Below are positions 12,412-42,182 of a stretch of DNA of 64,000 nt, piece after piece. Under the pieces are notes generated by a model. That model did not search any database. It was not told where the DNA came from and saw only the letters and a list, made by a program, of their open reading frames with translations. The stretch comes from Sphingomonas sp. S1-29 (lineage in GTDB: Bacteria; Pseudomonadota; Alphaproteobacteria; Sphingomonadales; Sphingomonadaceae). The stretch covers positions 3,151,501 through 3,215,500 of the forward strand of contig NZ_CP110678.1 of NCBI RefSeq assembly GCF_026167545.1. Direction: 5' to 3'. Numbering within the stretch: the first letter of the stretch is position 1; each line of letters begins with the position of its first letter. The translations under genes were made by a program, and so were the position numbers.

Positions 12412-12498
12412 CCGTCGCCCCAGCGAAAGCTGGGGCCTTCCCGTTTGGCAGGCCGCGCGTGCAAAATGGGGAGATCCCAGCTTTCGCTGGGATGACGG
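12412..12498. repeat. Intergenic palindromic repeat, CCCAGCGAAAGCTGGG family
   Basis: Two copies of a CCCAGCGAAAGCTGGG hairpin face each other, bounded by CCGTC and GACGG. The same element occurs at 42061-42140. It fills most of the gap between the CitE-like gene and cobU. Confidence 0.85.
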
Positions 12499-13021: not shown

Positions 13022-13062
13022 GCCTCTTGCCTCCGCTTCGACCGCATATTAGGGGCGATCGG

Positions 13063-13239
13063 GTGACAGGTTCCCAGAGATGGGATCAAAAGGGAACCCG
13101 GAAGCGGCCAAGCCGTGATCCGGGGCTGTACCCGCAACTGTGACCGGCGAGCGTTCGCCCATCCATGCCACTGGACCCTTAGGGTCCGGGAAGGCGGGAC
13201 GAACGTGGTGACCCGGGAGCCAGGAGACCTGCCTGTCAC
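13063..13239 (+). ncRNA. Cobalamin (adenosylcobalamin) riboswitch
   Basis: A perfect 8-bp P1 helix pairs GTGACAGG (13063-13070) with CCTGTCAC (13232-13239). Inside are the conserved GGGAACCCGG, the GGGGCTGTACCCGCAACTGTGA core, ATGCCACTG, GGGAAGGCGGGACG, and the B12 box AGCCAGGAGACCTGCC (13218-13233). It lies upstream of btuB and the B12 salvage operon in the same orientation and should lower their expression when cobalamin is abundant. Confidence 0.96.
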
Positions 13240-13366
13240 GGTCGGTCCTTCGCGCGGACGGGAATATCCGGGCGATCGAGGTTTTTTTCCTCGTGTGACG
13301 ACACCGTTGGGGTGGCGCGCGTGGAGGGTTCCCACGATAGCATCATCGTGCCCGTCGGGCGCGCGA

Positions 13367-13387
13367 CCCCTTGTTGTTGATAAGGGG
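13367..13387 (+). promoter_or_regulatory. Hairpin sequestering the btuB ribosome-binding site
   Basis: CCCCTT (13367-13372) can pair with AAGGGG (13382-13387), which is the Shine-Dalgarno sequence of btuB just before AAC-ATG. This looks like a translational expression platform for the riboswitch. No T-run terminator of matching strength was seen between the aptamer and the start codon. Confidence 0.5.
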
Positions 13388-13393
13388 AAGAAC

Positions 13394-15445
13394 ATGACTA
13401 TCCGTACATATCCAAGCGCTTACCAGCACTGTTCGCTTTTTGCGGCCCAGCCAGTCCGTTCGTTTCGAGCGCAGTCGAGAAACGGTGATGGCATCCTGTG
13501 CGGCGAAAGTTTCTCGAATGCGCTCGAAACGAACGGGCTGAGGGCGAGCGCGGTGCTAGCAGCGCTGGCCATCGCTTTGGCCGCATCACCGGCTTACGCC
13601 CGCGACATTCCCGAAACCCCCGACGACACGATCGTTGTCACCGCCAACCGCAGCGAGCAGCCGCTCGACCGGGTCGGCCAGAGCATCAGCATCCTCGACG
13701 CCGAGGACATCGAAATCCGCCAGACGCAGGCGGTCGCCGATCTGATGCGGACGCTGCCCGGCGTCACCGTTACGCGCAACGGGGGGATCGGCACCTCGAC
13801 ATCGGTATCGATCCGCGGTGCCGATGGCGACCAGACCGTTGCGCTGATCGACGGGGTCAAGCTCAACGATCCCTCGTCGCCCGGTGGCGGGTTCAATTTC
13901 GGCAATCTGCTCGTCGGCAATATCCAGCGGATCGAGGTGCTGCGCGGGCCGTCATCGATCCTGTGGGGCAGCCAGGCGATCGGCGGCGTCGTCAATTTGC
14001 TGACCGCGCCGCCGACCGAGGCGCTGGCGGTGAATGCCCGCGCCGAAGTTGGCTGGCGCAACACCGGTCAGGCGGTCGCTAACATCTCGGGTAAGGCGGG
14101 GCCGTTGTCGGTGAGCGCGGGCGGCGGCTATTTTCGCAGCGACGGCATCTCGGCGTTCAGCGAGGCGCGCGGCGGCACCGAGCGCGACGGCTATCGCAAC
14201 TGGGGTGCGAACCTGAACCTGAACCTGGCGCTGACCGACGCGATTTCGGTCGACGCGCGCGGCTATTATTCGGACGGGCGGGTCGAGATCGACGGCTTCG
14301 CCGCCCCCACCTTCGCGTTCGGCGATACCGAGGAATATAGCACGACGCGCGAGTTCGTCGGCTATGCGGGGCTCAATGCCGCGCTGTTCGAGGGGCGGTT
14401 CCGCAACCGGCTGGGCTTTGCCTATACCGATTCGGATCGCGGGAGCTTCGACCCCGCCGAGACCTTCGCGGCCAAGGGTCGCAACGAGCGGCTCGAATAT
14501 CAGGGCGTCGTCGATATCGTCGCGGGCAGCCAGGCGACCTTCGGGATCGAGCGCGAAACCTCGCGCTTCACTTCGGCGAGCTATGGCGGCCCCGAGGCAC
14601 GCGGGCGTGCACAGATCGACAGCGTCTATGGCCAGTTGGTGGCGACGCCGATTACCGGGCTGACGCTGACCGGCGGGCTGCGCCACGACGAGCATAACCG
14701 CTTCGGCGGCGCGACCACCGTGGGCGCGAGCGGGGTGTTCTCGCCCAATGACGGCGCGACGATCCTGCGCGCGAGCTATAGCGAGGGCTTCAAGGCGCCG
14801 TCGCTGTACCAGCTGCAGAGCGAGTACGGCAATCAGACGCTTCGGCCCGAACGCGCGCATGGGTGGGACGCCGGGGTGACGCAGCGGCTGCTCGATGGCG
14901 CGATCGAAGCGAGCGCCACCTATTTCCGGCGCGACAGCCAGGACCTGATCGTGTTCGTGTCGTGCAACGCGCCGCTGAGCGGCATCTGCGCCGGACGGCC
15001 GTTCGGCACTTACGACAATATCGCCGAGGCGACCTCGAAGGGCGTCGAGGTGGCGCTGGCGCTGCAGCCGGTGCCAGCGCTGCGCATGCAGGGGAGCTAC
15101 ACGCATATCGATGCGCGCAACCGTTCGCCGGGTGACGCCAATTTCGACCGGCGGCTGGCGCGGCGGCCGAGCGACAGCGTGACGACGACGGTCGATTACA
15201 GCTGGCCGTTCGGGCTGCAGACCGGGGCGACGCTGACTCATGTCGGCACCAGCTTCGACAATGCCAGCAACGCGCGGCGGATCGAGGGCTATGTGCTCGC
15301 CGACCTACGCGCGGCGCTGCCGGTGACGCGCAATGTCGAGCTGTACGGGCGCGTCGAGAATGTGTTCGACGAGCGGTATGAGACGCTGTTCCGCTACGGC
15401 ACGTCAGGACGCGCTGCCTATGGCGGCGTTCGGGTGCGCTACTGA
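13394..15445 (+). CDS. btuB: TonB-dependent vitamin B12/cobinamide receptor
   Basis: An outer-membrane receptor of 683 residues, first gene behind the cobalamin riboswitch. The hydrophobic signal core (ASAVLAALAIALAASPAYA) comes only at about residues 50-68, because a palindromic repeat encodes roughly residues 21-48. The mature part starts RDIPETPDDTIVVTANRSEQ, with the TonB box, followed by a plug (VADLMRTLPGVTV, VSIRGADGDQTVALIDGVKLND, IEVLRGPSSILWGSQAIGGVVN) and a barrel ending VRVRY. The position after the switch and before corrinoid genes fixes the substrate class. ATG 13394 has a good ribosome-binding site (AAGGGGAAG). The stop overlaps the next gene as TGATG. Confidence 0.95.
   Translation: MTIRTYPSAYQHCSLFAAQPVRSFRAQSRNGDGILCGESFSNALETNGLRASAVLAALAIALAASPAYARDIPETPDDTIVVTANRSEQPLDRVGQSISILDAEDIEIRQTQAVADLMRTLPGVTVTRNGGIGTSTSVSIRGADGDQTVALIDGVKLNDPSSPGGGFNFGNLLVGNIQRIEVLRGPSSILWGSQAIGGVVNLLTAPPTEALAVNARAEVGWRNTGQAVANISGKAGPLSVSAGGGYFRSDGISAFSEARGGTERDGYRNWGANLNLNLALTDAISVDARGYYSDGRVEIDGFAAPTFAFGDTEEYSTTREFVGYAGLNAALFEGRFRNRLGFAYTDSDRGSFDPAETFAAKGRNERLEYQGVVDIVAGSQATFGIERETSRFTSASYGGPEARGRAQIDSVYGQLVATPITGLTLTGGLRHDEHNRFGGATTVGASGVFSPNDGATILRASYSEGFKAPSLYQLQSEYGNQTLRPERAHGWDAGVTQRLLDGAIEASATYFRRDSQDLIVFVSCNAPLSGICAGRPFGTYDNIAEATSKGVEVALALQPVPALRMQGSYTHIDARNRSPGDANFDRRLARRPSDSVTTTVDYSWPFGLQTGATLTHVGTSFDNASNARRIEGYVLADLRAALPVTRNVELYGRVENVFDERYETLFRYGTSGRAAYGGVRVRY
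13456..13536. repeat. Palindromic repeat lying in frame inside btuB
   Basis: The arms at 13456-13483 and 13509-13536 are 28 bases each and complementary with one mismatch. They start with CCGTTCGTTTCGAGCGCA and end with GAAAC, enclosing a 25-base loop. It is the same family as the elements at 6339-6482 and 28081-28176. Here it is read through as protein between the btuB start codon and the hydrophobic part of the signal peptide. Confidence 0.9.
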
Positions 15446-28037: not shown

Positions 28038-28080
28038 TGGGATGCCTTGCACCGGCTCCCAAAGACCGTACCCGTCCCCC

Positions 28081-28176
28081 CCGTTCGCCCTGAGCTTGTC
28101 GAAGGGCGGCCTGCACTTTCGGCTGCCCCGCTGGATGTTGGTACGGGCCGGGCTTCGACAAGCTCAGCCCGAACGG
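28081..28176. repeat. Palindromic repeat overlapping the modA start region
   Basis: The arms CCGTTCGCCCTGAGCTTGTC..GAAG (28081-28104) and the complementary copy at 28153-28176 have two mismatches over 24 bases. The family is the same as at 6339-6482 and 13456-13536. A potential GTG start for modA sits immediately after the right arm. Confidence 0.88.
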
Positions 28177-28944
28177 GTGTGGGGGCGGTGGCTGCCAATT
28201 GCCGTCGCGCTGTTGGCGTTGGTTTTTGCCTCCGCGCCTTTATCCGCCCAATCCGGTGGCCCACTCGTCCTCGCCGCCGCCAGCATGCAGGAGGCGCTGA
28301 CCGCCGCCGCCGATCGCTTCGCGGCACGCGGTCAGCCGCGTCCGGTGTTGTCGTTCGCCGCCTCATCGGCGTTAGCGCGACAGATCGCCGCCGGTGCGCC
28401 CGCCGACCTGTTCGTCTCTGCCGATGATGGCTGGATGGCCTCGGTCGAGGAGGCGGGCTTGCTCGCCCCCGGCACCCGCGCGACGGTGGCGGGCAATCGT
28501 CTCGTCCTGATCGCGCCGACCGCGGTCCGGCTGCCCCCCATCCGCACGGGCGCGCAGATCGTGGCGGCGCTCGGCAATGGGCGCATCGCGATCGCCGATC
28601 CGCAGGCGGTACCCGCTGGCCGCTACGCCCGCGTCGCCCTCGTCCGCATGGGAGCTTGGCGAGCCATCGCTCCCCGCGTCGCCGCCGCCGAGAATGTCCG
28701 CGCGGCGCTGGCGTTGGTCGAGCGCGGCGCGGCGCCGTTGGGGGTAGTCTATGCCACCGATGCCCGCGCATCGAGGGCGGTGCGGGTCGTTGGTGTCTTC
28801 CCCGCTGCCAGCCATCCGCCGATCCGTTACTTGGTCGCCCGGCTTGCCCGCTCGCGCGACCCGTCCGCCGAAGCCTTTCGCCGCTTCCTGCTGTCCCCCG
28901 TCGGCCGTGCGATCCTGCGGGCGCACGGCTTCAGCGCGCCCTGA
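28135..28944 (+). CDS. modA: Molybdate ABC transporter, periplasmic binding protein
   Basis: A periplasmic molybdate-binding protein. The signal core RWLPIAVALLALVFASAPLSAQ is followed by PLVLAAASMQEALTAAADRF, the family start, then LSFAASSALARQIAAGAPADLFVSADDGWM, PQAVPAGRYARVAL, and a C-terminal RFLLSPVGRAILRAHGF. The start is uncertain. The frame is open from an ATG at 28042, through ATG 28135 and GTG 28177, and a palindromic repeat occupies 28081-28176; none has a convincing ribosome-binding site. ATG 28135 is a compromise giving a 269-residue protein. The stop overlaps modB as TGATG. Confidence 0.88.
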   Translation: MLVRAGLRQAQPERVWGRWLPIAVALLALVFASAPLSAQSGGPLVLAAASMQEALTAAADRFAARGQPRPVLSFAASSALARQIAAGAPADLFVSADDGWMASVEEAGLLAPGTRATVAGNRLVLIAPTAVRLPPIRTGAQIVAALGNGRIAIADPQAVPAGRYARVALVRMGAWRAIAPRVAAAENVRAALALVERGAAPLGVVYATDARASRAVRVVGVFPAASHPPIRYLVARLARSRDPSAEAFRRFLLSPVGRAILRAHGFSAP

Positions 28945-42040: not shown

Positions 42041-42060
42041 CTACGACCGCCATAATCCTC

Positions 42061-42140
42061 GTCACCCCAGCGAAAGCTGGGGTCTTTCTGTTACGAAGCG
42101 CGCGATTGCCGCGGGAGACACCAGCTTTCGCTGGGGTGAC
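42061..42140. repeat. Intergenic palindromic repeat, CCCAGCGAAAGCTGGG family
   Basis: A second copy of the element at 12412-12498. GTCACCCCAGCGAAAGCTGGGG on the left faces CCAGCTTTCGCTGGGGTGAC on the right. With the preceding repeat it fills the gap between thrC and the convergent lipoprotein gene. Confidence 0.85.
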
Positions 42141-42182
42141 GGATGGGAGGGGAGCCTTGGCGCAAAGTGACCCCCCGGCAAC

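Follow-up and report, generated by a model that had tools for sequence, protein, structure and literature searches.

Structure of the btuB locus

The 64,000-nucleotide stretch analyzed here (the window) comprises bases 3151501-3215500 of the single-contig chromosome of Sphingomonas sp. S1-29 (G000; 3,376,213 bases), and it carries a gene for a btuB-like TonB-dependent receptor whose leader contains a palindromic DNA element. The gene follows a cobalamin riboswitch, and its ATG at 13394 lies in an open reading frame (ORF) that extends over 13115-15445 (Table 1). The top NCBIfam match of the receptor is TIGR01779 (TonB-dependent B12 receptor), which starts at residue 51, C-terminal to the element; the Pfam plug and barrel domains score above cut-off. 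An earlier note, written from the DNA letters alone, had named the gene btuB. The name rests on the best match and the upstream riboswitch, and because of both we keep it; the score of 300.9 bits falls under the curated cut-off of 599.7, which lowers the certainty of the name.

The repeat search returned two arms of 32 nt (13452-13483 and 13509-13540) that are 94% complementary and 25 nt apart. Within the boundary shared by the family described below, the arms are 28 bp long with one mismatch between them, in agreement with the inverted repeat that the note had placed at 13456-13536. As it had also described, the element sits between the start codon and the hydrophobic core of the signal peptide, and the btuB frame is free of stop codons across both arms and the loop. 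RNA of the segment 13440-13545 is predicted to fold at -68.3 kcal/mol (z -8.75), and none of 200 shuffles folds as well. Additionally, the element lies 65-74 nt past the ribosome-binding site, which matches the earlier estimate of 69 bases and the remark that the repeat could fold in the mRNA. The possibility that the repeat is not a real feature was ruled out by the 0 of 200 shuffles that fold as well, together with the 0 matches of a control pattern in the genome.

Table 1. Features of the btuB locus in window coordinates
Feature	Position	Strand	Basis or remark
Cobalamin riboswitch (Rfam RF00174)	13051..13250	+	116.4 bits, gathering score 31.5; also present in L001 and L102
Ribosome-binding site AAGGGGAAG	13382..13390	+	By eye; identical in 37zxx (L001 alignment)
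btuB-like TonB-dependent receptor, ATG start, 69-residue presequence	13394..15445	+	Open frame, profile matches, start position common to L001 and L102
Leader segment of ~50 nt lacking in both near relatives	13406..13455	+	Alignment to L001
Palindromic element, 81 bp (27 codons), in btuB frame	13456..13536	+	Family boundary CCGTTCG...CGAACGG
Left arm CCGTTCGTTTCGAGCGCAGTCGAGAAAC, in-frame translation (V)RSFRAQSRN	13456..13483	+
Loop, 25 nt	13484..13508	+
Right arm GTTTCTCGAATGCGCTCGAAACGAACGG, in-frame translation SFSNALETNG	13509..13536	+
Hydrophobic core and cleavage region of the signal peptide (ASAVLAALAIALAASPAYA)	13544..13600	+	Compared with L001 and L102 signal peptides; cleavage site by eye
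GTG, rival start at the beginning of the hydrophobic core	13553..13555	+	Nearest in-frame ATG/GTG/TTG codon past 13394; picked by a simple gene caller

Comparison of the btuB locus with relatives

Of the named relatives found, Sphingomonas sp. 37zxx is the closest, and its btuB-locus protein (L001) is 91% identical; over the btuB stretch compared, L001 and the locus of genome G163 (L102) are both 91% identical to the window. Joined conserved blocks (1452 nt) give G000 an identity of 95.0% with G163, 93.3% with 37zxx and 80-81% with the more distant genomes G188 and G099 (btuB loci L103 and L104). From 13250 to the ATG, L001 differs little from the window, and it then reads MSVRISSLSLAAALAASPVYA; at the corresponding place, G163 reads MPVRISLLSLAVVLAASPAYA. 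Both genomes keep the riboswitch, the ribosome-binding site (GAGGGGAAG at the matching place in G163) and the ATG, lack the element, and have a signal peptide of ~21 residues. The signal peptides of G188 and G099 are short as well. The element in btuB is, as judged from these alignments, a lineage-specific insertion in the G000 line, because 37zxx and G163 retain the surrounding signals without it. Since all four relatives are short at the btuB site, the locus is most simply explained by one gain in the G000 line.

In the window, 69 residues precede the matching cleavage point, a net 144 nt more than in the near relatives; the element makes up 81 of these. The earlier expectation that removal of the element would leave a normal signal peptide is not supported as stated, as 42 residues would remain compared with ~21 in the relatives. 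We found no second copy of the 68 nt that lead up to the element (13388-13455) anywhere in the genome, and the best other matches there are 14-15 bases long.

In 3 of 54 distinct btuB-like sequences (65 loci), namely those of the window, G231 and G228, the 210 nt ahead of the mature N-terminus contain an inverted repeat with arms of at least 20 nt. No distant relative among them shows the same sequence at the same place, and the alignment of N-termini and upstream DNA suggested earlier came out in favor of an insertion. The btuB genes of G231 and G228 (L107 and L109), which are two other species, carry a different palindrome, in frame directly after the signal peptide. Among the 53 btuB-like sequences other than the window, the best-scoring starts lie 20-38 codons ahead of the motif used in 49; the four exceptions are L015, L016, G231 and G228, and the GTG starts of L015 and L016 probably lie within the leader.

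A dispersed family of palindromes

Searching the genome for TTCGAGCGNAGTCGAGAA at up to 2 mismatches gave 80 arm matches on one strand and 86 on the other, against 0 for the reversed control pattern. At least 79 family copies were drawn from the arm matches listed, mostly with perfect arms, in 61 sources (60 chromosome stretches and the window); 70 are full, with both arms and a length of 68-83 bp, and 9 are half copies. Two further full copies, at 2087213 (intergenic) and 2978057 (over the end of a short low-scoring ORF), stand outside this number. A covariance model built from 21 copies yielded at least 148 strand-matches in G000, equal to ~74 full copies if each matched on both strands, 44 in G163 and 5 in 37zxx; at most 150 candidates per genome were scored, and the G000 number is a lower bound. 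Similarly, the arm counts are 74 and 75 in G000, 17 and 21 in G163, and 1 and 3 in 37zxx. Across the genus, 90 of 295 genomes contain at least one family arm at up to 1 mismatch.

The consensus of the 21 copies starts with CCGTTCG and finishes with CGAACGG, and the units occur in both inverted orders, the CarA copy being reversed. By a simple gene caller, 65 of the 79 copies are intergenic (the btuB copy is included there), 12 lie inside ORFs and 2 over an ORF end; 52 of the 65 intergenic copies are closest to the 3' end of a gene. The family therefore has the general features of repetitive extragenic palindromic (REP) sequences, with many short palindromic units, mostly intergenic, near gene ends and in inverted pairs. 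The earlier statement that the btuB repeat is identical in type to intergenic elements elsewhere holds for the genome, with 78 further copies, but not for the window, where a search allowing up to 3 mismatches found no other copy.

The consensus carries no GTAG or CGTC tetranucleotide tag at either end. None of the 70 full copies shares 3 or more flanking bases as a target-site duplication, and identity of 1-2 bases is within the shuffle range. The flanks of these copies are C-rich on the left side and G-rich on the right. We found no REP-associated tyrosine transposase flanked by the repeat in a search for PF01797, the one transposase family looked for. The sole PF01797 (Y1 transposase) match is an ORF split over two frames at 2623036-2623391 (L133), ~22 kb from the nearest copy among those listed. 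A neighbor on the opposite strand in L133 resembles TnpB by eye.

Other palindromes are present in the window. One of another family, at 28080-28177, has a similar CCGTTCG-like outer end (CCCGTTCGCCCTGAGCTTGTCGAAGGGC). Those at 12412-12498 and 42060-42141, with CCCAGCGAAAGCTGGG stems, appear, set against the text of PMC3733652, to resemble CGTC-type REPs.

Copies in other coding sequences

The search for in-frame copies elsewhere in the genome, as the note had proposed, showed that btuB is not a lone case, with the family in frame in at least 8 other named genes. ORFs that carry copies match ValS, DnaE, CarA, MetH, PutA, HrpB, TolB and MurB above the curated NCBIfam cut-offs. We counted as coding the full copies in ValS, DnaE, MetH, PutA, HrpB and MurB, two half copies in CarA, a half copy in TolB, and the copy at the C-terminus of a beta-lactamase-like protein. 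The latter ORF (2995899) scores 43.8 bits in NCBIfam (cut-off 200) and 80 bits for Pfam Beta-lactamase2 (cut-off 22). Two copies, at 3119018 (in the usual phase described below) and 1106257, were dropped as coding, with no NCBIfam or Pfam match.

Nine full copies lie in ORFs that match NCBIfam or Pfam, or extend over the end of such an ORF, namely those in ValS, DnaE, MetH, PutA, HrpB, the MurB N-terminus, the beta-lactamase-like C-terminus, a VanY-domain ORF near its start, and an acetyltransferase-domain ORF. Eight of the nine read in one phase (PFVSSEVEK...), a recurrent in-frame peptide of the kind by which Rickettsia palindromic elements (RPE) are recognized. Where the right arm is translated in that phase, it gives FSTSLETNG or a near variant. 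Moreover, all seven full copies counted as coding have a length of 2 mod 3, compared with 28 of 62 other full copies; this is the length that a constant frame across the element calls for. The VanY-domain and acetyltransferase-domain copies (3027033 and 3135597), near ORF starts of uncertain position, belong to the 62 others in this length count, yet they are included in the phase count of eight of nine. In the beta-lactamase-like ORF, a stop lies inside the loop; therefore, the left arm alone is translated, and the length of this copy is not constrained. The copy at 3027033 (L091:1950-2124) comes right after an ATG in an ORF with a VanY domain (PF02557), ahead of a signal that resembles those of lipoproteins (RSVLGITAALTLAAC), and reads in the usual phase. 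In CarA, the two half elements stand in reverse order and each gives the usual peptides. The same phase is found in ValS and HrpB of G114 and in CarA of G049 and G082.

TolB resembles btuB in the placement of its copy. In tolB (L076:1940-2200; G000 2038300-2042400), an ATG with a strong ribosome-binding site is followed by an in-frame copy before the hydrophobic core; by eye, the left arm of this copy is broken by another palindrome. In both btuB and TolB, the left arm reads RSFRA-xSRN, a basic peptide in a phase other than that of PFVSSEVEK, although two cases are too few as proof of selection for charge.

Shared sites and different palindrome families

In G163 and 37zxx, the six sites inside proteins and the one at the N-terminus of MurB are mostly not empty. 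In G163, DnaE and the beta-lactamase-like C-terminus contain the same element, and other palindrome-like peptides are found at ValS, CarA, MetH, PutA, HrpB and MurB. Similarly, 37zxx has other palindrome-like peptides at DnaE, CarA, MetH, PutA, HrpB and MurB; its ValS site holds a short piece that resembles a remnant. The palindromes were measured at three sites (ValS, CarA and HrpB) and judged by recurrent peptides at DnaE, MetH, PutA and MurB.

We surveyed the three measured sites in 21 genomes, a non-random set of 5 near or control genomes and 16 picked by btuB similarity or family richness. In total, 58 sites were recovered (ValS 20, CarA 19, HrpB 19), and 30 of them have arms of at least 16 nt with up to 2 mismatches (ValS 11, CarA 13, HrpB 6). 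The frame is kept in 28 of these 30, and the two that break it both belong to G082. For each of the 30 sites, 0 of 20 shuffles matched its own arm length, and in random 120-nt windows of G000 stretches away from the element, 16-nt arms were reached in 14 of 600. Palindrome-free sites are only 21-27 nt long in 6 of 9 cases for ValS and 5 of 6 for CarA. In structural terms, the ValRS site lies in a loop region, with residues 472 and 476 of 1gax_A on either side, and the CarA site in the linker that joins its two domains, at about residues 184-186 of 1cs0_B.

The stems found at common sites plainly differ in sequence (e.g., TTCGAGCGAAGTCGAGAA, CCCCTCCCGCTTGCGGGAGGGG and CCCCTCCCCTTCAGGGGAGGGG). 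As unrelated stems occupy one site, hotspots for insertions of different origin are favored. A further and more tentative idea, which we regard as possible but on balance doubtful, is that fixed slots (the ValS loop, the CarA linker, HrpB, PutA, MetH, DnaE and the MurB N-terminus) always contain some coding palindrome, but that the family in residence is swapped lineage by lineage, perhaps by insertion of palindrome into palindrome. Selection might also pick the phase, with the near-neutral PFVSSEVEKP in cytosolic proteins and, in the signal-peptide n-regions of BtuB and TolB, the basic RSFRAxSRN.

Origin of the btuB element and competing explanations

We consider it probable that a copy of a REP-like family, in which a loop of ~20-25 nt separates two inverted units of 28 bp, inserted in the G000 lineage into the n-region of a BtuB-like protein started at ATG 13394, where it would be translated as ~27 extra residues of a cleaved presequence and tolerated. 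Repeated palindromes of this type would spread chiefly between genes, and copies inside genes would survive where they lengthen the gene by a multiple of three at a permissive position. Such positions may be linkers, loops, the ends of proteins and the n-regions of signal peptides, able to accommodate ~25 extra residues. Survival of some copies inside genes would follow from the consensus arms, which are free of stop codons in all frames apart from a single frame of a T variant. The btuB copy may persist because its frame is open, the extra residues fall in a removed or little-constrained segment, and the core and cleavage site are intact; no function of the element would be required. The note's picture of a tolerated insertion that kept frame is largely right, with the insertion evident from the empty sites of 37zxx and G163, the kept frame from the stop-free reading of the element, and tolerance the presumed part.

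Several observations weigh against this interpretation. For the history of the locus, the remaining 63 nt of the net gain are not accounted for by the element, and the grouping of G000 with G163, supported at 0.956 in FastTree, reaches just 59 in IQ-TREE. For the coding copies, the one at 3135597 (L096:1813-2955, 78 bp, in the ORF with the acetyltransferase domain PF13480) has a different phase; this copy may lie before the true start, which may be the ATG just behind the element. In addition, some shared sites are out of frame, namely metH of 37zxx (L176; 97 nt between flanks, in a draft assembly) and ValS and HrpB of G082 (L225 and L224; 136 and 110 nt). For the leader itself, the codon score is negative over the 21 codons before the element (-3.2) and the 21 codons after it (-2.3), and a simple random model gives a chance of ~0.16 for an open, in-frame leader after an insertion of such size. 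These codon scores allow no decision between the starts at ATG 13394 and GTG 13553. The simple gene caller began btuB at the latter, and Di Nocera et al. 2013 (PMC3733652) caution that many REPs at annotated N-termini may be non-coding.

The last two points also speak for an arrangement in which the element occupies the 5' untranslated region, the old start has been displaced, and the receptor begins at GTG 13553 behind GAGGGCGAG; this codon is in frame and has GAGGGC 8-13 nt upstream. However, the peptide from this GTG (MLAALAIALAASPAYA) is without a positively charged n-region, whereas arginine is found at position 4 in both near relatives, and K or R near the start in most others listed (by eye). 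The upstream start, ATG 13394, has been retained together with its ribosome-binding site, as in L001 and L102. In TolB, moreover, the matching GTG codons have no visible ribosome-binding site, while the upstream ATG has a strong one. From this pattern, translation from ATG 13394 is likely, and a displaced start is unlikely. It is also conceivable that the hairpin is kept for an mRNA role, slowing the first ribosomes or guarding the transcript past the riboswitch, as its strong predicted fold shortly past the ribosome-binding site would allow. Against this, both near relatives have the same riboswitch without the hairpin, 51 of the 54 btuB-like sequences have no inverted repeat with arms of at least 20 nt, and the family is genome-wide mostly intergenic and nearest to 3' ends, and we regard such a role as improbable. 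Finally, an ancestral element would have to have disappeared from 37zxx and G163 as well as from the more distant G188 and G099, all with short signal peptides, and the family is amplified in G000 relative to G163 and 37zxx; this history is highly improbable, and we rejected it. Collectively, the insertion of a translated family copy in the G000 lineage remains the explanation that we prefer.

Relation to known palindromic elements

The family resembles RPE, which are likewise alphaproteobacterial dispersed palindromes found in frame in unrelated housekeeping proteins, with a recurrent peptide and in exposed places. These elements reportedly occur in DNA polymerase III alpha among others, and different groups can neighbor one another in orthologues (PMC3767692, PMC10969869, PMC2229807). 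By analogy, the btuB element may work as RPE do, as tolerated repetitive DNA translated as an extra peptide in permissive places; we set it beside RPE by description. In contrast to RPE, the full Sphingomonas copies are shorter (68-83 bp versus ~100-150 bp), the host is free-living, the copies are mostly intergenic, and the families that share sites have plainly different stems.

Among REPs, Di Nocera et al. 2013 (PMC3733652) described the GTAG and CGTC types. They reported intragenic copies in S. alaskensis and E. litoralis, within tRNA synthetase and truB genes, and different REPs at roughly one position of the recB gene in two species of Xanthomonas. Like the GTAG and CGTC types, the present family consists of short units paired in inverted orientation, which are mostly intergenic, close to 3' ends, and sometimes intragenic. 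Unlike them, it has no tag, its outer CCGTTCG is paired in the doublet, and no matching transposase was seen in the PF01797 search. The elements also share with miniature inverted-repeat transposable elements the character of short dispersed inverted-repeat DNA able to make in-frame fusions, but they lack the target-site duplication (0 of 70 full copies). Mitochondrial genes of Nematomorpha are likewise reported to contain coding perfect inverted repeats (PMC6649704), which differ in being mitochondrial and up to 284 bp long.

Among the matches listed from the open-licence literature, we found no earlier description of this family by title or abstract opening, a search that did not cover the supplementary lists of PMC3733652. 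In a passage search of PMC12306157, no word starts with "sphingomon", and Erythrobacter occurs once, in a table. When the arm sequences were searched as text in the literature, the matches listed looked unrelated by title.

The single btuB case is modest; coding palindromes of several families that share housekeeping slots in a free-living genus are the more interesting result. For annotators, palindromes inside genes of Sphingomonas are not automatically errors. The findings also bear on a question raised for R. japonica, where different RPE groups lie near one another in orthologues (PMC3767692) and the choice between hotspots and the divergence of an old insertion was left undecided; the unrelated stems in Sphingomonas favor insertion hotspots. 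Furthermore, in-frame palindromes are best known from Rickettsia, and their presence in free-living Sphingomonas opens both the effect of an insert on an essential enzyme and the turnover of such inserts to direct test.

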